A stretch of 64,000 nt of DNA from Anaerolineaceae bacterium (GTDB taxonomy: Bacteria; Chloroflexota; Anaerolineae; Aggregatilineales; Phototrophicaceae): assembly GCA_002699585.1 (NCBI GenBank), contig PABP01000035.1, forward strand, positions 250,052-314,051, given 5' to 3'. Below, one piece after another: positions 35,396-49,630 of the stretch; position 1 is the first letter of the stretch, and every line of letters begins with the position of its first letter. The notes beneath the pieces are model-generated. The model did not search any database, was not told the DNA's origin, and saw only the letters and a program-made list of their open reading frames with translations. Position numbers and translations under genes: made by a program.

Positions 35396-36406
35396 TCACA
35401 TTGAATAAAGATTGCCATCAAAGTCACCAACATAGTAGCCGTCTTCAATGTCTTGGATTTTAGGAATTTTTTCTTCCAACCATGTAATAATAGGCTCTGA
35501 AGCTTCAGGCTGGCCAGTCCTATATAGTGCCCAAATACAAAAAAACTCATCATCTTTATCACTAAAACCACTCAGTAATCTTCCCAGCTGTGCAACTTCT
35601 ACACCCTTATTTATTTCAGCTAGCGCCCAAATTGCGCGCAGCCTAAATGTGTCTTGTGCTTCAGCAATTTCAAGCAGAAACTGTGAAGCCTCGCTGTCCC
35701 CAATCCATCCTAATGACAATATTGCCTGTTCGATATCGTAATCATAGACTGATTGCGTCTCGACCTTTTGTCTCAAACGACTCTTTATGAATTCAACTAG
35801 ATGAGCAATAGCTTCGCTACTTCCAATAGAGCCTAGTGCAAGAGCTGTTGAGTAGCGCGTATCTATAGCCGCACTTTTCAAAAATGGCACAATATGTCCA
35901 ATCGCATTCGCATTTCCAATTTGTCCAAGTTTCTGAATTGCAAAATCTTGCTCTTCTTTATCACCAGTTCTTATCATGTCAATATATGGCAAAATACTGA
36001 CGTACTTAGATTTAATTGGTTCAATCGCCTGCAACAGCTGTTTTTCTGATTGTTCCTTTCGTTGCAACACAAAATTAATAGCTTGGTATTGGCTGACTTG
36101 GAGCTTTTTCAGTGCTTCACCCGTATTATTAAGCCGCTCCATAACAACAGGAATAATATCTAAGTGATTTGCCTTTGATATCTCTATTTCCTTCTTTATC
36201 CATTCCGAATTCAGAGCCTGTTCAGTAATAATCACTACCGTAGTGAATGCTGATTGTATAGCACGATAAATTTCCCTTTCCCACTTCTCGCCTCCAGGAA
36301 TTCCGTCGAGATCGATCCAGGTCACGTATCCTTCGGATTCAAGAAGGTTCTTTAAGCTTTCTGCAAAATAAGGTGTACCGCGTGAATAGCTGAGAAATAT
36401 GTGCAC
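35396..36406 (-). CDS. TIR-domain protein with HEAT repeats (probable NADase-type defence effector)
   Basis: Residues 1-125 form a TIR domain: MHIFLSYSRGTPYFAESL, the WIDLDGIPGG loop, and SEWIKKEIE in which Glu73 matches the catalytic glutamate of NAD-cleaving TIR proteins. Residues ~140-330 are HEAT repeats (AIGHIVPFLKS, YSTALALGSIGSSEAIAHLVEFIK). TIR domains fused to repeat sensors often act in phage defence by depleting NAD. The 336-residue product ends at a TGA after which the frame stays open. The gene is AT-rich and opposite in direction to its neighbours, as expected for cargo. Confidence 0.82.
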   Translation of the reverse strand: MHIFLSYSRGTPYFAESLKNLLESEGYVTWIDLDGIPGGEKWEREIYRAIQSAFTTVVIITEQALNSEWIKKEIEISKANHLDIIPVVMERLNNTGEALKKLQVSQYQAINFVLQRKEQSEKQLLQAIEPIKSKYVSILPYIDMIRTGDKEEQDFAIQKLGQIGNANAIGHIVPFLKSAAIDTRYSTALALGSIGSSEAIAHLVEFIKSRLRQKVETQSVYDYDIEQAILSLGWIGDSEASQFLLEIAEAQDTFRLRAIWALAEINKGVEVAQLGRLLSGFSDKDDEFFCIWALYRTGQPEASEPIITWLEEKIPKIQDIEDGYYVGDFDGNLYSM

Positions 36407-36701
36407 GTTGACTCACCAAAAACAGGAATCCGATATTTACCGGAATACTAAGATAAACTTTAGTTAAGAAGAATTAGTCTACAACGAAAATGATCATTGA
36501 ATCAATCTACCCAATCGTTGAAACGGCCAACTTTATTTGCCAAATGACGAAACTCTTAATTTTTGAATCAAGCAACGACCTACCTCTCACCTGTTCACTC
36601 AGCACTTGTAGATAACGATAACCCACTGATTTGCCTGTAATTCTTACCACCATAACCACAATGCTTAACTTCTGTATCGTCTCCCCGCCTGATGAGATTT
36701 A

Positions 36702-37200
36702 GTGCCGTTTGAGTTGCCACATTAGCACGGCGCGGGCGTACGTCCAGCCATAGGCTGCTGCTTCGGATTGCGCTCCGGGCTGGTGCCGTTCCACTCAGCG
36801 CGCAATCCGGCAGGGCTTTGCCGACCGGCGCCCTTGCCCGCCGTGCTCATTCCAGTGGCACAAACGGCACCTTACCAAATCATCGACCGAACCGGACACT
36901 GCTACAGGTGGATTGCAAAGCTCTGTGGCGCTGCGGATTATACGCAGCAGAAGCCTTATCGAGCAGCGTTCGGCTCCAAGATGCAACCTCCTCCCCGCAA
37001 TCCGGCGGGGTATGTCCGATGGTCGCGAACTGTATCCGCAAGGGTTACGTCGGAAAGACCTCTGAATATTGACTGGAGACACCGGTGTGTTGGCGACACA
37101 CCGCCAGTTGGTCACGTTCGGGCCGCAACCGGGCAGGATAGAGGAGCACACAACACGCGAGGCACGCTCAATGATGATGTCATCATCGAGCGTGTTTTTT
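36702..37200 (+). ncRNA. Candidate large structured non-coding RNA or DNA hairpin element
   Basis: A nested stem pairs GTGCCGTTTG (36702-36711) with CAAACGGCAC (36861-36870), TGCCAC with GTGGCA, and AGCACGGCG (36724-36732) with CGCCGTGCT (36839-36847). Inside lie CGGATTGCGC/GCGCAATCCG and CGGCA/TGCCG hairpins. Further hairpins follow (GCTGCG/CGCAGC near 36940, CCCCGC/GCGGGG near 37000, CGGTGTGT/ACACACCG near 37090). An intrinsic terminator closes the stretch at 37163-37200. No coding frame is convincing. It matches no RNA class I know (not RNase P, tmRNA or 6S). Confidence 0.5.
37163..37200 (+). terminator. Intrinsic terminator upstream of the SLOG gene
   Basis: CACGCTC-A-ATGATGA pairs with TCATCAT-C-GAGCGTG around a two-base loop, followed by six T. 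It lies only 24 bases before the SLOG start codon, so it ends an upstream transcript that has no gene, or works as an attenuator. Confidence 0.85.
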
Positions 37201-37224
37201 ATTTCTACAAATAGGAGGTCGACT

Positions 37225-37689
37225 ATGACCCAATCACAGATCGAACCAACGACGCATGTGCTGATCGCAGGCAGTCGCTATTCTACTCGGCAGATGCTGA
37301 ATTATGCTCGTCGCGTCGTGCGTCGCGCACATAGCAAGGGCTATACGATTCTCGTGGGTGACAATCCCAAAGGCGTCGATATGGCTGTCGTACGTGAATG
37401 CCGCCGACTTCAGGCGAAAGTCATTCTCGCTGGTGCAGGGAACTTCCCGCGCAATGGCGGTTGCAAACACGGCAGCTACGTCAAGGTGCATCGGGAACTA
37501 TATCGCGGGGTGGGCGGCACACTACTGGGCAAATACACCGTCCGCGACCGCTGGATGGTCGATCAGGCGCAGATAGGCATTTTCGTGTGGAACGGCGAGA
37601 GTCCCGGCACAAAGCAGGGCTACGACTACATGATCGCACGCGGCAAGGACGCGCACCTCATCACGTTCAGAAGAGAGGCCAAAACATGA
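37225..37689 (+). CDS. SLOG/YspA-like (DUF2493-type) protein
   Basis: The 154-residue protein starts after a strong AGGAGG. The N-terminal VLIAGSRYS and the central YTILVGDNPKGVDMAVVRECRRL match the Rossmann-like SLOG fold of YspA/DprA-type proteins, which binds nucleotide or nucleotide-derived ligands. A C-terminal part with FVWNGESPGTKQGYDYM fits the same family. It may sense a nucleotide signal in the element. It overlaps the next gene by four bases (ATGA). Confidence 0.72.
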   Translation: MTQSQIEPTTHVLIAGSRYSTRQMLNYARRVVRRAHSKGYTILVGDNPKGVDMAVVRECRRLQAKVILAGAGNFPRNGGCKHGSYVKVHRELYRGVGGTLLGKYTVRDRWMVDQAQIGIFVWNGESPGTKQGYDYMIARGKDAHLITFRREAKT

Positions 37690-39218
37690 GCGAGCACATC
37701 ATTGCCATAGCAACATATGGCTCACACCGAGTCAAGCATCCGCAGAATGGACAAAAGGTCAGTGCCTATAAGATTGGCTACACCACCGCTGCGAGCGCCG
37801 TTCTGCTCTCCCTCTACGGTGACCAGGCACAAGATGTGTCTTCCAAACAGGCCTCGTACCACTACATCCAGATCGATGCCGAGGTGATCGTCCGGCATGG
37901 CTATATCCTGCTGAAGTTAAGTGACGATGAGCTTACGCGCACCGAAACCATCACTATCCAGAGCCATCGTCCGGCGGTGTATCGCTGGCTGGAAGGTACA
38001 TGGCAGGAGTTCCCTAATATCCGATCTGCCGACTACCAACCGACTAGTGGAAGCAGCGGACCTAACTTCAATCCAACAGGCATGTTGATTGTGTCTGCAT
38101 CTACTGGCGAAGCCGAACCGGCAAGTGAGACCATCACTGCTGAAAAGAGCCAGCGCACTGAAAATGAAACACCGTGGTGGTGGCTTCGGGGTAACACCTA
38201 TCCCCACCGTGATGTACTCAAACGCTGGGGCTGTCGCTGGAGTAAGCGAAACAAGGCATGGTACTACATCGGCACGCAACTGCCGGACGCCGTGCGGCAA
38301 CTGACGGAGCAAGTCAACACGCCAAACGACAAGGTGATGTGTAACGATGATCGTAATCCGTGTTCGATCGAGGAAGCGACCGCCATATTGGGTATGCACC
38401 TGAATGATTCCGTGAATGCATCTATCCCCGTGGAAGATGACCCACAAATTGCGCCTAGTATCGACAATGCAGTCGATATGGCCGCTGAGGATGAGCCGAA
38501 AATCCGCATCACCAAACCGATGCTCGACCTACCTGATGGCGCTGAAGCTGATCCGATAATCGTGGCGGTACGTCAGACGACCTTGGAGACATTGCCTGTC
38601 CTACAAAGCCCACCCTCGGCAAGTGGCGGGCGTAATCTCCTTCGCATCCCACAATCGCCCTGCGGAGAACTGACGGGCAGCATCACAGGCAGCGTGTGGT
38701 GTTATGGTTATGCCGTGCATGAGGGCACCTGCGTGTACGTCAACATGGGCGGGCCGCGAATGGCTGTCGAGGCGATTCGCGCCAAGCTCAGCAAAGGCGA
38801 CATCGTGAATTGTGTGCCGATGGATGCGCCTGCGATTGAGCTGACGGCGGGTGAAGGCAACACGGGCATGTACACCGCCTTCATGCAGAACATCCCCGAA
38901 GCGAAGTTCACCAGCCTGATTCTGGTACATGAGATGCTGACACAGCCCAACTATGGTGGCAAATCGACTACGTTTATGGTGCATATATCCGATGAGCAGG
39001 CCATGAACCAACTGCGCGATCACATCATGAAGCTGGTGAAAGTGCCCGTTTTCGCAGAGTGGACGAACTACCTCTGGCACACAGGACAGGCCGTGAAGCT
39101 ACTTCGACCGACACGCACAGGTGGCGACATCAAGCTGTGGACGGTCGATCTGGATGCCGATGCGTGGACACGGCTTATTACAGGCGGGTTAGCAAAATCA
39201 GTTTTACGTCTTTCTTAA
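37686..39218 (+). CDS. Uncharacterised 510-residue mobile-element protein
   Basis: The ATG at 37686 overlaps the SLOG stop. The N-terminal 120 residues are mixed alpha/beta. Around residue 160 there is a module, TYPHRDVLKRWGCRWSKRNKAWYYIG, like the short DUF5710-type domain that occurs in plasmid proteins (position-marked GxxWxxxxKxWY). The C-terminal half contains repeated alpha/beta strands without a motif I recognise. It is well conserved in composition with neighbouring core genes and is probably a maintenance protein of the element. Confidence 0.6.
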   Translation: MSEHIIAIATYGSHRVKHPQNGQKVSAYKIGYTTAASAVLLSLYGDQAQDVSSKQASYHYIQIDAEVIVRHGYILLKLSDDELTRTETITIQSHRPAVYRWLEGTWQEFPNIRSADYQPTSGSSGPNFNPTGMLIVSASTGEAEPASETITAEKSQRTENETPWWWLRGNTYPHRDVLKRWGCRWSKRNKAWYYIGTQLPDAVRQLTEQVNTPNDKVMCNDDRNPCSIEEATAILGMHLNDSVNASIPVEDDPQIAPSIDNAVDMAAEDEPKIRITKPMLDLPDGAEADPIIVAVRQTTLETLPVLQSPPSASGGRNLLRIPQSPCGELTGSITGSVWCYGYAVHEGTCVYVNMGGPRMAVEAIRAKLSKGDIVNCVPMDAPAIELTAGEGNTGMYTAFMQNIPEAKFTSLILVHEMLTQPNYGGKSTTFMVHISDEQAMNQLRDHIMKLVKVPVFAEWTNYLWHTGQAVKLLRPTRTGGDIKLWTVDLDADAWTRLITGGLAKSVLRLS

Positions 39219-39253: not shown

Positions 39254-40297
39254 TTAATACGGCCAATCATAGTCGGGATTAAAAATTTGTATTTTCTTGT
39301 TTTTCTCGATGTAATCGATAAATGACCGCATAATTAACGACACAAGTTTTAATAATTCAAGAGTAGTTGTCATATCCAAAGAGGTATCAAAACCAAAACG
39401 GTGAATGAAATTGTGTCGGCGATCTATAAGTTGCTGATAATGTTGGTGTAAAGGTTGTACACGATTGGCAACTTTTTTTCTGGTATTGAGAGCGTCAAAT
39501 AGACTAATATCAAACCATTCTCTGTAAGCTCTATCCATTTGAGCTAAATTTTGAAAGCTATACCAGTTTGCAACGACATCTTCCAAACTCACCCTGCCAT
39601 GAATAATTGGCAATACCTCACTAAACTCAAGCTTCTTGTTTTTGCTCTCCATCTTTACAGTAGCTTTTGGATCAAATCGCAGCAGTATAACGAAAACGTC
39701 AGAGAAAAATGATTCCAAGGCAGCTACACAGAATGCAGGAAGAACATTATATATAACGCGGCTTGGATCACTGCTTTCAAAGATTTCCCGGATGTGAGCT
39801 TCAGCCTCTTCCATAGGAGCAAAAATGGGTTTTGGGAGCACCTCCATCAACGTATCAATCTTAGCGATTATTCGCGCGTATGTAATATAGATGCCTCTGC
39901 CGCTAGAGTCTCTGGGATCAACTGATGGATTAATATAACGATTTTTACCAGCGTGATCGTTATGAAAACGTCCACCATATGCTCGTCGAAGTTGCCTAAT
40001 TGTCTCATCTTGTTTTCGTAGATCGAAATAACTAGATGAGATTCTTGTTCGCGTATGAATGTAAAATTTAGTGTTGTCGGTAATTTCGTCGTCAGGAGAT
40101 TGGTTGGGAACTATATTTGCCTCTACACCATTTATAGATTCATAGTTTTCTTCATCAAACCAACGATAGTGCCTAAGTTTCGGGGACGCAGCGAACAAGA
40201 AGTGACTATCCACTTGCACGTACCCTAGGTCCAACAATATCTTTTCATAATCCTCACGAGACCCGCGCTCAGGATATATAACTACTTCAATACTCAT
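39254..40297 (-). CDS. HEPN-like protein, possible RNase of a defence or addiction system
   Basis: The 347-residue protein starts at an ATG (40297) with GGAGG seven bases upstream; a TTG four codons earlier overlaps that site. Near residue 300 lies IDRRHNFIHRFG, an R-x4-H pattern typical of the catalytic centre of HEPN RNases, in an all-helical C-terminal region. The N-terminal part is mixed and unrecognised. The gene is AT-rich and transcribed against its neighbours, like the other cargo genes here. No antitoxin-like small gene adjoins it, so a toxin role is uncertain. Confidence 0.55.
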   Translation of the reverse strand: MSIEVVIYPERGSREDYEKILLDLGYVQVDSHFLFAASPKLRHYRWFDEENYESINGVEANIVPNQSPDDEITDNTKFYIHTRTRISSSYFDLRKQDETIRQLRRAYGGRFHNDHAGKNRYINPSVDPRDSSGRGIYITYARIIAKIDTLMEVLPKPIFAPMEEAEAHIREIFESSDPSRVIYNVLPAFCVAALESFFSDVFVILLRFDPKATVKMESKNKKLEFSEVLPIIHGRVSLEDVVANWYSFQNLAQMDRAYREWFDISLFDALNTRKKVANRVQPLHQHYQQLIDRRHNFIHRFGFDTSLDMTTTLELLKLVSLIMRSFIDYIEKNKKIQIFNPDYDWPY

Positions 40298-40364
40298 GAC
40301 TTCCTCCAAGGGGGCCGAGTTTTTGCACGAAAAATTAAATGTAGATTAACCGAAGGAATGAAAA

Positions 40365-43300
40365 ATGGCACGCCTTGAATCGAAAGCCGTTATGGGTTAT
40401 CTACCCATCGAAGAGCGCCACTATCCGGTGCTCTTTTCGTTAGTCGCATCCGCGACATCCGCCCATCGTCTGCTGGATCCCTTCGCCGGAGAAGGCGCAT
40501 TTCTGGAAGCTGCTGCAAAACGCTGGCAGGTCACGCCCTATGCTAATGAACTGGATGGCAACCGCGCCGAACAGTGTCTGCAGCGGTTTGGCGTTCGGCA
40601 AGCGGTTCGCTGTGATGTGGAACGGCTCATCGCCAGCAATAATGCCTTCTCAATCGGCTGGTTCAATCCACCCTACGACCATGATGCGACTGCATCGGGC
40701 AGCAAGCGCGTCGAGTTCCGCTACCTGCGCCACAGCTGGAAGTGGATTCAGGAGGGTGGCATCGTCATGTGGTGCGTCTACCGCACGCACCTGACCGGAG
40801 AGGCTGCCGCATTCCTGTCCAAAAACAGCACACAGGTCGATGTCTGGGCACTGCCAGGCAAACATCTGGGTCAGTACGATCAGGTCGTGGTGGTAGCAAT
40901 CAAGGGGTTGCAGCCCGATCCAGATGCGCTTTATGAGCAGATTCTGTCGCAGAAGGCACAGCCACGAGTGCTGGAAGTTCAGCCGGAACCGCTCTACAGG
41001 CTGCCGCCCGCGCCGGACAAATCACGGCGATTCGTGTTCGCACCGGATGTCATCGATGAAGAACAGGGTTTGCGGCTGATCGAAGCACAGGGGGCCTGGC
41101 AGACAAACGGCTTTCAGTCGCTGCTGGCGATTCCGCCGACGCCACCCCAGATCGAACCGGTGGTCGTACCGCGTCCGGGACACATGGCCCTGGTACTGGC
41201 AGCAGGCGTCGCCGATGGCGCTGTAATCGAAACCGAAGACTATGGCACAGTCGCCATTCGTGGTAAGACACAGCATGTGCAGCAAGTCGCCCGTGTCGAT
41301 GTCGAGAGTGATCCCACTGACCCGGATCGGCAGGTCAAGAAGACCACCATTCGCCTGAAACCCTCAACTACGCTGACACTGCTGGCGGCAGATGGCACAC
41401 TCATCGAGATGGATGGCGACGATGCTCTGCTGGACTTCATCACGCGCAACAAGAAAGCGCTGGCGAGCTACCTCAACAACCGCTTTTCACCGATGTACCG
41501 CTTCGACTTCAATGGGCTAAATCGCTTCCTGGATCGCGTGCGCCTCAAGGGCAAGTATCCGCTCTATGCCGCTCAAAAGCACGTCATTGCGGCTGTCACC
41601 AAAGGCTTTGAGAAGCGCGACAGCATCCTGCTGGTGGGCCAGATGGGAACGGGAAAGACCGCCATGGGAGGAACCTCGGCTATCGCCATTGCATCCGGTG
41701 CGGTCGATGCCATTGCCAGCGACATTCGCAACGATCAGGTCATCCTCATTGTGGCCCCGCCGCACCTGGTCGAGAAATGGAAGCGGGAGCTGCTCAGCAT
41801 CCACCCCAACAGTGTCATTGAACGGCTGGATCGGCATGAGGATGTCAAAGCTTTCATGGCGAAAGCAGCACGACTGGGCGCAAGCATTCCCAAGATCGGC
41901 CTCGTCAAGCGTGACCTGACCAAGCTTGGCTGCAGCCGTGAAACAGTAGTTGTCTGGCGCAACCAACCTGTCGCCCTATGGAAACATGACCAACCAGTTC
42001 CGGAAGGCTATGAACCCAGTCAGAGGATCGTCAAACAGCGCACGCCTAAGTGCCCACACTGTGGCCATACCGTTATGCAAGAAAAGAACGGCGCCAGCGT
42101 CGCAGCTTCCGAGAGTTGGCTCAATGCAGGTAAGCGGTCTTGCTCCGTCTGCATGACGCCGCTGTGGCAGGAAGTCCGCGATCGCGGTTCGCGTCCCAAG
42201 ACAGGTCAGAAGTATGCGCCCAAGAATCCGCGCTATCGGCTGGATGAGTACATCAAGCGACTGTATCCAGATCGAGTGTATCTGCTCATCTGGGATGAGT
42301 GCCACGAAGCAGCTAACGGTGACACCGGAAACGGTGAATCATTCGGACGATTGGCAGGCATCTCAAAGAAGATCCTGGCGATGACTGGCACGCCTTTCAA
42401 TGGCAAAGCGTCATCCCTGTTCAACATCGAGTATCACCTGAATCAGCGCATTCGCGCCCGCTACAACTGGGGAGGTTCTGATCGGCTGACTAGGAAGGAA
42501 CGCGGCACACATCGTTTCCAGGCGGTGGTCGATGCCAATAGCAAGCAACGTGGTCGAGCTGAATCGCAGTGGGTGAGTGACATGGGTGTGCGTGAGCAAG
42601 TGATCGAAGAGCGGCCATCCTACGACAGCAATACCGGAGCCTATACGGGCACATCAACCTATGAGCGGCCCTATGAAGAAGCGCCAGGGATCTCGCCGCT
42701 GCTGATTGCCGAAGTTCTCGATCACGCTATTTTCTTCTCATTGGGTGACCTGGGCAAAGCCCTACCAAAGTATGAAGAATCTGCGATTGCGGTCGAGATG
42801 GATGCCGATATTTACGAAGAATACGACAATACCCGCGCGCTGCTGAAAGACTATCTCATTCAACGTCGATGGGAAGGCGATACCAGTTTCAGGGGGGCCT
42901 ATCTGCAATGGTCAATGGGCTGGATCAATACACCGCATCGCCCTACCGAAATCATCCACAACATCAGGCATCCCATCAGCGGTGAGAAACGACCGCATAT
43001 CGTCACGCGCATCGGTTCCTATGGCGAAGATCGTATCTATGCCAAAGAGCAAGCCCTCATCGACCTTCTCAACGACGAACTGGCAAACGAGCGACCGTGT
43101 GTGGTCTATCTGCGGCAGACCGCCACCAAGGACATCCAGCCGCGCATCGAGAGTCTGATTCGCCAGCATGTGCCGCTTGCAGTACCCTACATTCTCAAGA
43201 ACACGGTGCAGGCGGAGCGGCGCGAGCGGGTCATCGACCAGCAGATCGCCAGCGGTGTGAATATCGTCATCTGTAATCCCGAGCTCGTCAAAACGGGCCT

Positions 43301-44351
43301 GGATTTGATCCATTTTCCCACTTTGATTTTTCATGAGATCACGTTCAACCTGTCGACGATGATGCAGGCAGCAGCACGCGCCTATCGCCTCAACCAGACG
43401 CACGAACAGTGCAAGACGGTGTACCTGTTTGCAGAAGGCACGATGGAGCATACCGCGGTGCAGCTCATGAGCCGCAAGCAGCGAGCGGCCAAGCTGTTGA
43501 CAGGTGACATCGGGCTAACGGGTTTGGACGCTTTGACTGAGGGCGAATCTGGGTTTGAGGAAGCACTCATGGATGCCATCGCCAAGGACGAAGCCCTGCT
43601 TGACCCCAGTGAGATGTTCCAGGCCAGTGCTGGACAGAGCGAACTGGACAACGAGGATTTGGCTTACTGGAATGTTGAGGTCGCTGACGAAACCATCTCA
43701 GAAGAATATACCGACGATCCGCTGCTACAAACCGCAATTGAACTCGGTGGTGTCATCGCTGAAGAGAAACCGGAACCGGAACCTGCTGTCTTCGATGCGG
43801 TCATCCCCGATACAGCCCGACTGGTGCGGTATGTGAGCCGCTATCTGGATACCGTGCATCTGATCCATGATGAGAACAAGCGAGCACGTCTGCAAGCGAA
43901 ACTGCTCACCGCCATGACCGATGGTGTGAAGAATGATGATGACACCTACAAGGTCATTGGCATGTTCGACCCGCAGTTCAGTCAGCACAGCGTGCATGAG
44001 GATGCCATGATCCGATATGTGCGCGGCTGGCTGAAGCAACATCGCTTCGTGTTCATGGGATGCGAAGACGAAACTGCCGCGACGGTGGTTGATCTGGCAA
44101 AGCAGGCCCTGGGGCTGACGCCAATCAAGCTAGACATCTTTGAGAAGTTGCAGGATATGCACGATGAGGCGCAGCAGGATGATCTCTCAGCCAAGTTGAA
44201 AGCTGCCCCGAAACCAGCTCAGCCAAAGAACCGCAAGCGCGTTATTGACCTGAATACAGTTCCCGAGGATGAACCTGTTGAAGACCGAGTTCTATCGCTA
44301 CGGATTGAGAACAGTGAAGAATCACTGCCTGTTCAGATGGCGATGTTCTAA
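40365..44351 (+). CDS. Methyltransferase-helicase fusion protein
   Basis: The 1328-residue protein has an N-terminal SAM-dependent methyltransferase (LLDPFAGEGAFLEAA at 37-50, NPPYD at 101-105, as in adenine-N6 enzymes). A linker domain precedes an SF2 helicase: Walker A VGQMGTGKTAMGG (about 424-436), DECH at 644-647 and MTGTPFNG. A Cys4-type zinc finger (CPHCGH ... CSVC) lies between Walker A and DECH. The second RecA domain ends in QAAARAYRLNQTHE. Proteins of this type occur on plasmids and phages and can protect incoming DNA or assist replication. A role in anti-restriction is an inference. Confidence 0.82.
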   Translation: MARLESKAVMGYLPIEERHYPVLFSLVASATSAHRLLDPFAGEGAFLEAAAKRWQVTPYANELDGNRAEQCLQRFGVRQAVRCDVERLIASNNAFSIGWFNPPYDHDATASGSKRVEFRYLRHSWKWIQEGGIVMWCVYRTHLTGEAAAFLSKNSTQVDVWALPGKHLGQYDQVVVVAIKGLQPDPDALYEQILSQKAQPRVLEVQPEPLYRLPPAPDKSRRFVFAPDVIDEEQGLRLIEAQGAWQTNGFQSLLAIPPTPPQIEPVVVPRPGHMALVLAAGVADGAVIETEDYGTVAIRGKTQHVQQVARVDVESDPTDPDRQVKKTTIRLKPSTTLTLLAADGTLIEMDGDDALLDFITRNKKALASYLNNRFSPMYRFDFNGLNRFLDRVRLKGKYPLYAAQKHVIAAVTKGFEKRDSILLVGQMGTGKTAMGGTSAIAIASGAVDAIASDIRNDQVILIVAPPHLVEKWKRELLSIHPNSVIERLDRHEDVKAFMAKAARLGASIPKIGLVKRDLTKLGCSRETVVVWRNQPVALWKHDQPVPEGYEPSQRIVKQRTPKCPHCGHTVMQEKNGASVAASESWLNAGKRSCSVCMTPLWQEVRDRGSRPKTGQKYAPKNPRYRLDEYIKRLYPDRVYLLIWDECHEAANGDTGNGESFGRLAGISKKILAMTGTPFNGKASSLFNIEYHLNQRIRARYNWGGSDRLTRKERGTHRFQAVVDANSKQRGRAESQWVSDMGVREQVIEERPSYDSNTGAYTGTSTYERPYEEAPGISPLLIAEVLDHAIFFSLGDLGKALPKYEESAIAVEMDADIYEEYDNTRALLKDYLIQRRWEGDTSFRGAYLQWSMGWINTPHRPTEIIHNIRHPISGEKRPHIVTRIGSYGEDRIYAKEQALIDLLNDELANERPCVVYLRQTATKDIQPRIESLIRQHVPLAVPYILKNTVQAERRERVIDQQIASGVNIVICNPELVKTGLDLIHFPTLIFHEITFNLSTMMQAAARAYRLNQTHEQCKTVYLFAEGTMEHTAVQLMSRKQRAAKLLTGDIGLTGLDALTEGESGFEEALMDAIAKDEALLDPSEMFQASAGQSELDNEDLAYWNVEVADETISEEYTDDPLLQTAIELGGVIAEEKPEPEPAVFDAVIPDTARLVRYVSRYLDTVHLIHDENKRARLQAKLLTAMTDGVKNDDDTYKVIGMFDPQFSQHSVHEDAMIRYVRGWLKQHRFVFMGCEDETAATVVDLAKQALGLTPIKLDIFEKLQDMHDEAQQDDLSAKLKAAPKPAQPKNRKRVIDLNTVPEDEPVEDRVLSLRIENSEESLPVQMAMF

Positions 44352-48125: not shown

Positions 48126-48833
48126 ATGTACGCACAGGATTGGAATGGCCGCAGCCTGCAAACAGCTCTGGCCGAACAGCCGAGTTTACAGCTTAGCCTG
48201 TACAGCTTCGGCGCGATTCTCCGCAAGGCCACCGATAATTGCGGCTTCACCGAGTTCCCTGTCGATCCCGACGAAATCGCCCGCGCCCTGAGTGCGAAGA
48301 CCATCTTCACCACGGGCCTGATGACCGATGATGTGCTCTATGTGCATCAGAAAGGCGTCAAACAGACGGTGGTCGGCTTTCGCAAACGCCAGCGCACAGG
48401 TATCTGGCTGGAAGGCAGCGACGAACCCTTGCGCGTGCCTCTGCCCGATCTGGTGCTGATCCGCACAACCACCAACGGACAATCCCCGGACTATCGTCTT
48501 TATGCCGTGAAAGGCCGTCCAACAATGCTGGATGCTCCGCTGTTTCATACGCCACTGCCCAATGTCTATCAGAGCGGCGGCATCTGCTGGGGCAATATCG
48601 GGCTGGGAGCGATCCGGGGCACATCGCTGGCCCAGGACTGGGATACGCTACTCGGCACACGCTTCGGCTCGCACGCGGTATCCGGTAAGTGCAAGTCCCA
48701 TCCCGATGATGTGCGCAAGATGCTGATCGACCTTAACGCCAATCAGCGACGTCGAGTCTATCCCAAATCCGAACTCATCCCCGCCAACAAATCACTGGCT
48801 CAGGTGCTGGGTATCGAGGAGGAAAGTGCATGA
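48126..48833 (+). CDS. PRTRC system protein B (E2-like)
   Basis: The 235-residue protein has the family hallmark LFHTPLPNVYQSGGICWGNI, with His141, the PNVY turn and Cys154, which is the predicted E2-type catalytic cysteine. It would take an activated ubiquitin-like protein from the adjacent ThiF-like E1. It starts after a GGAAAG site and overlaps the ThiF gene by four bases (ATGA), so the two enzymes are made together. Confidence 0.82.
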   Translation: MYAQDWNGRSLQTALAEQPSLQLSLYSFGAILRKATDNCGFTEFPVDPDEIARALSAKTIFTTGLMTDDVLYVHQKGVKQTVVGFRKRQRTGIWLEGSDEPLRVPLPDLVLIRTTTNGQSPDYRLYAVKGRPTMLDAPLFHTPLPNVYQSGGICWGNIGLGAIRGTSLAQDWDTLLGTRFGSHAVSGKCKSHPDDVRKMLIDLNANQRRRVYPKSELIPANKSLAQVLGIEEESA

Positions 48834-49630
48834 AAATCTACACATTCGATCCGTTTTTACATCCGAAAGAGATCGTGCTGGTGGGCTGTGGTGGAACGGG
48901 CAGCCAGCTTGCGCGAGCTGTCGCCCGACTTGTCTACAGCATGAAATCCGCAGGACAATCTACGCCGAAAGTAAGCTTCATCGATCCTGATGTGATCGAG
49001 CCAGCCAACGTCGGACGCCAGCTGTTCATCCACGCCGAAGTGGGTCTACATAAGGCTGAGGCGCTGGCACGGCGCTTCAACTACAGTCTGGGACTCGCTA
49101 TCGAATGGCACAACGAAGCCTTCAATCCGGTTCGCCATATGGATCGCTATTCGGGTACGATTCTGCTGGGAGCGGTAGATAATCATCTGGCCCGTCGCGC
49201 TCTGGCCCAGGCCGAACGAGCGCTGTGGATTGATTGCGGCAATCATCGCAATGGCGGACAGGTTGTGATCGGCAACACCGATGACCGCGAGGCTGTGCTG
49301 AATGGGCTGGATGCTGCTAGCGATGTCACGCGCTACCTGCCGAATGCCGCCTTGCTATATCCCGAACTGCTCCAACCCGATGAGGATGAACCCACCGCCG
49401 ATCTGTCCTGCGCGGAACTGGCTCAGCAGGGGGAACAGGGCGTGCTTATCAATGGCTTCATCGCCAACATCGCCGCCGAGTACCTACGGAAACTGCTTCA
49501 GCGCGAACCAATTACCACGTATCAGACCATCTTTTCTGGTGATGTACTCTCCATGCGGAGCACACCGATTACAGCATCGAGTTTCCATTTTCTGCCAAAC
49601 TGTAATTTATCACACAGTCGCAGCAAATAG
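48830..49630 (+). CDS. PRTRC system ThiF-family (E1-like) protein
   Basis: The 266-residue protein has the ThiF/E1 Rossmann signature GCGGTGSQLAR (20-30), the acidic residue in IDPD (51-54) and the Arg finger in NVGRQLF (Arg63). DLSCAEL (Cys194) is the candidate catalytic cysteine typical of the PRTRC group. It would adenylate the C-terminus of the ubiquitin-like protein C and pass it to protein B. No metal-binding CxxC pairs are evident. Genes B and ThiF are separated from protein C by a cargo gene and two small genes. Confidence 0.85.
   Translation: MKIYTFDPFLHPKEIVLVGCGGTGSQLARAVARLVYSMKSAGQSTPKVSFIDPDVIEPANVGRQLFIHAEVGLHKAEALARRFNYSLGLAIEWHNEAFNPVRHMDRYSGTILLGAVDNHLARRALAQAERALWIDCGNHRNGGQVVIGNTDDREAVLNGLDAASDVTRYLPNAALLYPELLQPDEDEPTADLSCAELAQQGEQGVLINGFIANIAAEYLRKLLQREPITTYQTIFSGDVLSMRSTPITASSFHFLPNCNLSHSRSK

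Follow-up and report, generated by a model that had tools for sequence, protein, structure and literature searches.

What occupies the roughly 500 bases that precede a SLOG-like gene in the 64,000-nt stretch of DNA analysed here (the window), and does it act as DNA, as the leader of an mRNA or as an RNA in its own right? The window contains a conjugative element, which encodes a VirD4-like coupling protein, a VirB4-like ATPase, a weak MobQ-like relaxase and PRTRC genes. A preliminary description of the locus had reported about 500 bases lacking any credible gene and had interpreted them as either a large ncRNA of a mobile element or the leader of an operon, naming a replication or recombination DNA hairpin as the alternative.

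A three-domain fold at the head of an operon

The nested arms on which that description was based are all present (GTGCCGTTTG/CAAACGGCAC, TGCCAC/GTGGCA and GCACGGCG../CGCCGTGC); they enclose two hairpins, as described, and further hairpins follow. The lack of a credible gene was also borne out. A 2-nt indel among homologues disrupts the frame within the best-conserved block, so the open reading frames of the region are not genes, and a coding gene was ruled out. The limits of the RNA had to be revised. We place its 5' end at ~36689, and not at 36702 as first proposed, because the outermost helix P1 pairs 36689-36694 with 36881-36886, and the terminator, initially counted as part of the RNA, is a separate hairpin located after 37146. 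The core thus defined measures ~460 nt, or ~510 nt with the terminator included, and comprises three domains, the second being the most conserved portion (Table 1). The terminator itself stood as described: direct folding confirmed a hairpin with a T-run (about -18 to -22 kcal/mol) that ends 24 bases 5' of the SLOG ATG at 37225. A generic consensus terminator scan did not list it in the window; its long stem with a mismatch probably falls outside the scanner's rule. The plus strand between 36690 and 37205 folds at -224 kcal/mol, compared with -189 ± 6.6 kcal/mol for shuffled sequences (z = -5.4; 0 of 100 shuffles as stable), and the minus strand of the RNA region gives a z of -4.2.

Table 1 Positions in the window of the structured RNA, its parts and the neighbouring genes.
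Feature	Position	Strand	Basis or remark
RNA core, type 1, three domains	36689..37146	+	Alignment A3 and consensus fold
Domain 1	36689..36886	+	Helix list, pair counts
Helix P1 of domain 1	36689-36694/36881-36886	+	Outermost helix, from alignment
Long nested arm of domain 1	36701-36744/36823-36871	+	Helix list
Hairpin of domain 1	36745-36760	+	Helix list
Long hairpin of domain 1	36761-36813	+	Helix list
Domain 1/2 junction, GGCACCTTACCAAATC	36866..36881	+	Equivalent CACCT^TAACAAA is the IS110 insertion site in relatives
Domain 2	36889..36976	+	GATTGCAAAGCT..TGGCGCTGCGG..TATACGCAGC; basis of models R1 and R3
Domain 3	36988..37146	+	Closing helix CTCCTC (36988-36993)/GAGGAG (37141-37146)
Inner helices of domain 3	37012-37030/37116-37136	+	Alignment, helix list
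Hairpin of domain 3	37068-37112	+	Alignment, helix list
Intrinsic terminator	37163..37200	+	Hairpin 37163-37194, T-run 37195-37200
SLOG-like gene, first after RNA	37225..37689	+	Shine-Dalgarno AGGAGG at 37213-37218
Second operon gene	37686..39218	+	WWW..WYYIG repeat protein, no Pfam family; kept in intact type-1 loci
DUF6094-like methyltransferase and helicase	40365..44351	+	Co-occur with RNA
PRTRC protein B and PRTRC ThiF	48126..49630	+	Mark element type

Covariation and the nature of the paired molecule

A DNA search of relatives retrieved homologues at 70-76% identity in three genomes (G012, G045 and G038) and a further one upstream of the SLOG gene in SZPD01000001 (L012). We aligned 13 full-length RNAs of this first type (alignment A3) and derived the consensus fold from the same alignment. 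The fold contains 132 pairs, 55 of them with at least one compensatory change. Across the type-1 alignment, 96.3% of the cells of these pairs are paired, versus 86.9% in shuffled alignments and 35-44% when partners are slid, a control biased towards structure since the fold comes from the alignment being scored. The covariation score is 0.310 versus 0.141 in shuffles, which ignore the relatedness of the sequences, and none of 500 shuffles reaches the observed value. An independent check came from a separate alignment of 18 RNAs of a second type, described below, whose fold has 115 pairs, 63 of them compensatory. The covariation search in related elements suggested at the outset thus detected compensatory changes well beyond the controls.

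The same alignments bear on whether the pairing takes place in DNA, that is, whether the region consists of inverted repeats acting as an origin, an oriT or a recombination hairpin. Such a function would suit a conjugative element with relaxase-like and coupling-protein genes nearby, the insertion of IS110 elements into the RNA gene, and the domain-wise recombinants between types found at L046, L038 and L042. However, G-U cells greatly exceed A-C cells in the type-1 alignment (118 versus 23), and the loop of one apical hairpin alternates among members between GCAA and UACG or UGCG, the usual swap among stable RNA tetraloops. This asymmetry and the GNRA/UNCG exchange indicate that the paired molecule is an RNA read on the plus strand, not a DNA cruciform, and the terminator downstream implies transcription. 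We consequently regard the DNA hairpin put forward in the preliminary description as very improbable. The sequences show that the locus is a non-coding structured RNA, encoded on the plus strand and made of three conserved domains.

The size and complexity of this RNA resemble those of group I and II introns, RNase P, OLE, ROOL, GOLLD and HEARO/omega RNAs, of which it could be a diverged member. Rfam 15, however, gave no gathering-level match in the window. Its cmscan returned just chance-level matches in the region at E values up to 5, none at E values up to 2 for the type-1 RNA of L036 and the type-2 loci, and no match to the GOLLD, ROOL, OLE, group I/II intron or RNase P models. ARAGORN detected neither a tmRNA nor a tRNA in the window. 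A known Rfam family, a tmRNA or an intron was accordingly rejected, and membership in a known class is the least probable of the readings that we considered.

At least three sequence types in one order

R1, a covariance model built on the conserved core, matched 15 of the 154 genomes of the order, with E values down to 1e-29. It matched no genome outside the order when 396 genomes of the class and 400 of the phylum were sampled. We had at one point taken other SLOG operons to be devoid of the RNA; this was wrong, as their upstream regions hold a diverged RNA in the same layout, to which covariance model R3 is blind. This type 2 has in common with type 1 a GGGCTTGTGCCGCT..CGCTCA loop in domain 1, a CACCTTAACAAA junction and the domain 3 strands GTCGTGGATG../CATCCAGGC. 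Helix P1 is formed by GGTCGATG../CATCGACC in type 1 and by TGTGCATTT/AAATGCACA in type 2, the latter identified by eye, and appears to be kept by unrelated sequences in the two types. DNA matches to type 2 occur in 26 of the 154 genomes of the order, which brings types 1 and 2 together to 34; a type-2 DNA search of a class sample yielded nothing outside the order. Type 3, with profile matches at E values of 1e-8 to 1e-13, occurs in genomes of family f8, again in the same layout. Compared across loci, the RNA has diverged in sequence into at least three types with its fold and position retained.

The RNA of locus L046 (L046:3827-4278) is a chimera, with domains 1-2 of type 1 and domain 3 of type 2, which points to recombination at domain borders. 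The genome of the window itself holds a second related element (L057, G000:C1:72300-76800) with a diverged type-2 RNA, RNase HI and SLOG. At L045 (9941-10106, minus strand) the RNA lies beside a decayed IS110 gene and upstream of a DUF488-like gene, and its domain 1 seems to have shrunk to a short hairpin.

A phage or plasmid origin of the RNA was rejected, as neither public collection gave a DNA match. Three pattern scans of viral contigs returned just single exact-pattern matches, judged to be chance. One of them is an HNH gene in L016, and the match at L078 (24 bases by blastn, 4.5e-5) merely restates the pattern searched.

A constant place before a variable first gene

In intact loci the RNA heads the operon and is encoded on its strand. 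The first gene after it varies: it can encode SLOG, a DUF488-like protein (Pfam DUF488-N3a), an unknown 224-aa protein or, in type 3, yet another product. Behind this variable gene come the same second gene and then the helicase-methyltransferase genes. Homologues of the SLOG protein come from Anaerolineae records (Chloroflexota). Elsewhere, homologues with ~60-78% identity lie downstream of the RNA. The helicase-methyltransferase is present in 32 of the 34 genomes with a type-1 or type-2 RNA, compared with 46 of 154 overall (Fisher p ~1e-19, a value that overstates independence since the genomes are related); in the two RNA genomes without it (G012 and G072), the RNA is near a contig end. Apart from the operon as a whole, we found no constant protein partner adjoining the RNA.

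Other genes accompany the RNA in the window and in some of its relatives. An RNase HI gene belongs to the same operon in G000:C1, G001 and others, and lies directly upstream of SLOG in some elements. In several elements RNase HI and SLOG are fused in one open reading frame (for example, L036:5441-6349 and L038:9662-10570). Directly upstream of the RNA in the window, a minus-strand gene (35396-36406) encodes a TIR domain and HEAT repeats (PF13676, PF13646) and is possibly a defence gene. A weak HEPN_RiboL-PSP-like protein is encoded, also on the minus strand, at 39254-40309, a position within the operon that separates the second gene from the helicase-methyltransferase.

Separate transcript or leader

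The constant place of the RNA keeps alive the leader reading of the preliminary description, in which a cis-acting RNA would sense a ligand, a protein or the state of the element and control terminator read-through or translation of the SLOG operon. The RNA is always directly upstream of the operon and on the same strand, mostly ~40-110 nt from the first start codon, and most SLOG-first loci carry a terminator, the layout on which the preliminary argument was built. Specifically, when the 105 nt 5' of the first start codon were scanned, 15 of the 18 SLOG-first loci, including the window, showed a hairpin with a T-run, versus 2.2 in dinucleotide shuffles. The corresponding counts are 4 of 12 for DUF488-like-first and 0 of 4 for MSQT-first loci; a terminator directly 3' of the fold is thus a feature of SLOG-first loci and not of most DUF488-like- or MSQT-first ones. 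The terminators found at this place are of at least four dissimilar sequences. Lying ahead of SLOG, they favour a separate transcript in the SLOG-first elements. A promoter scan upstream of the RNA in the window gave one site, with 0.8 expected, and thus no convincing promoter. Several type-1 loci that begin with a DUF488-like or MSQT gene have no terminator and a gap of only 38-75 nt from the RNA to the start codon, as expected of a leader.

Several observations fit poorly with a leader. The identity of the first gene changes between loci, and many leader-like loci have no terminator. The terminator forms a hairpin of its own 3' of domain 3, which is already closed, and inspection by eye revealed no conserved alternative pairing with the terminator stem. 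The anti-SD-like CTCCTC finds its partner GAGGAG within domain 3 and looks structural rather than a mask of the Shine-Dalgarno sequence. We dropped the mask, as this pairing holds in all members but one, L046, where CGUCC/GGACG apparently keeps the helix (by eye; the column count does not show it). On balance, we hold a cis-acting leader to be unlikely, although it is the main rival reading, above all at loci lacking a terminator. Since a terminator precedes SLOG in most SLOG-first loci and the first gene varies while the RNA remains at the operon head, we favour a discrete ncRNA.

IS110 elements insert into the RNA gene

At two loci (L038:6642-9167 and L042:3821-6412), an IS110-family element (PF01548, PF02371) splits the resident RNA between domains 1 and 2, at CACCT^TAACAAA. 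The inserted element carries its transposase gene and, ~50 nt further on, a complete RNA of another subtype; the remainder of the resident RNA follows 3' of the element. L013 and L045 hold decayed forms of this arrangement. Within the order, this transposase subtype was found only beside the RNA.

Such proximity could mean that the RNA originated as the guide (bridge) RNA of an IS110-family element and stayed behind in conjugative elements. It closely follows the transposase gene at L038 and L042, L013 and L045 show the arrangement in decayed form, and the subtype was found in no other surroundings in the order. Yet most RNA loci have no transposase, and the guide-like segments are found upstream of the transposase, in the left end of the IS. 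In L042, two segments of this end match the target: AAATGCA has the same sequence as the left target, and TTGTTAAG is the complement of CTTAACAA in the right target; the matches in L038 are weaker, and its left guide fits the type-2 junction better than the actual insertion site. By its place and by that of the target-matching segments, the 460-nt RNA does not qualify as a bridge RNA, which is encoded in the IS end and contains target- and donor-binding loops. Bridge RNAs of the IS110 group are located in the IS left end (PMC11208160). As the guide-like segments occupy this same position, the 460-nt RNA is target and cargo rather than guide, and an origin as bridge RNA is very improbable. Because the IS110 element breaks the RNA gene and yet supplies a complete copy, its cargo suggests that an intact RNA is needed by the host element, although this does not amount to proof.

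A probable RNA gene of PRTRC-type conjugative elements

The locus is probably a discrete gene for a large structured ncRNA, belonging to a family of conjugative elements with a PRTRC cassette in one order of Anaerolineae. This agrees with the first of the two readings offered initially, that of a large mobile-element ncRNA, as the covariation analysis supports the RNA and the VirB4, VirD4 and PRTRC genes mark the element as conjugative. The RNA would be transcribed from its own promoter, and the transcript would stop ahead of SLOG and fold into a stable RNA or RNA-protein particle. This particle may serve the upkeep or transfer of the element itself, the RNA acting in trans as a separate molecule and not as a switch fused to an mRNA. 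More tentatively, and with greater doubt than trust, it could represent a new class of large trans-acting RNA essential to this lineage of conjugative elements, for instance an RNA or RNP machine for replication, transfer or incompatibility. An RNA-guided IS110 transposon would then prey on it by targeting the RNA gene, and the intact copy brought along by the transposon would let the host element survive the insertion.

To our knowledge, very few bacterial RNAs are so large and structurally conserved, and the biology of PRTRC-type conjugative elements is almost unstudied. OLE, ROOL, GOLLD and HEARO RNAs are proven or suspected unusual machines. The family described here adds dozens of natural variants of three sequence types, a number sufficient for solving the fold and for guiding experiments, and points to an unrecognised RNA component of these elements. 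As a natural experiment, the IS110 insertions suggest that simple disruption of the RNA gene is not tolerated.

Comparison with known large RNAs and leaders

GOLLD and ROOL are large, multi-domain, covariation-supported ncRNAs of mobile elements, of unknown function (PMC12286853). The RNA described here shares all these structural traits and its association with mobile elements, but it has no Rfam match, measures ~460 nt whereas many GOLLD members exceed 800, resides in conjugative PRTRC elements instead of phages and prophages, and is fixed at the head of an operon and not near tRNA islands. It resembles OLE RNA in being large and conserved with an intricate fold, and differs in its lack of an Rfam match, its host group and its neighbours. 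The HEARO/omega RNA of IscB-IsrB is a large structured RNA that ends shortly 5' of a mobile-element protein gene. Our RNA also ends near a downstream protein gene of a mobile element; however, it has no Rfam match, and the genes downstream encode SLOG, DUF488-like and other proteins, not IscB or IsrB. With IS110 bridge RNAs it has a physical IS110 link at a few loci, but it is the insertion target and the cargo. Like attenuator and riboswitch leaders, it precedes an operon and is followed by a terminator at many loci; unlike them, it has three closed domains, a variable first gene and a terminator apart from the fold. We found no account of such an RNA in the open-licence literature, although a report that we have not seen may exist. 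Large, ornate ncRNAs of mobile elements are a known kind; what is new, as far as tested, is this particular RNA family, together with its host element and its connection to IS110.
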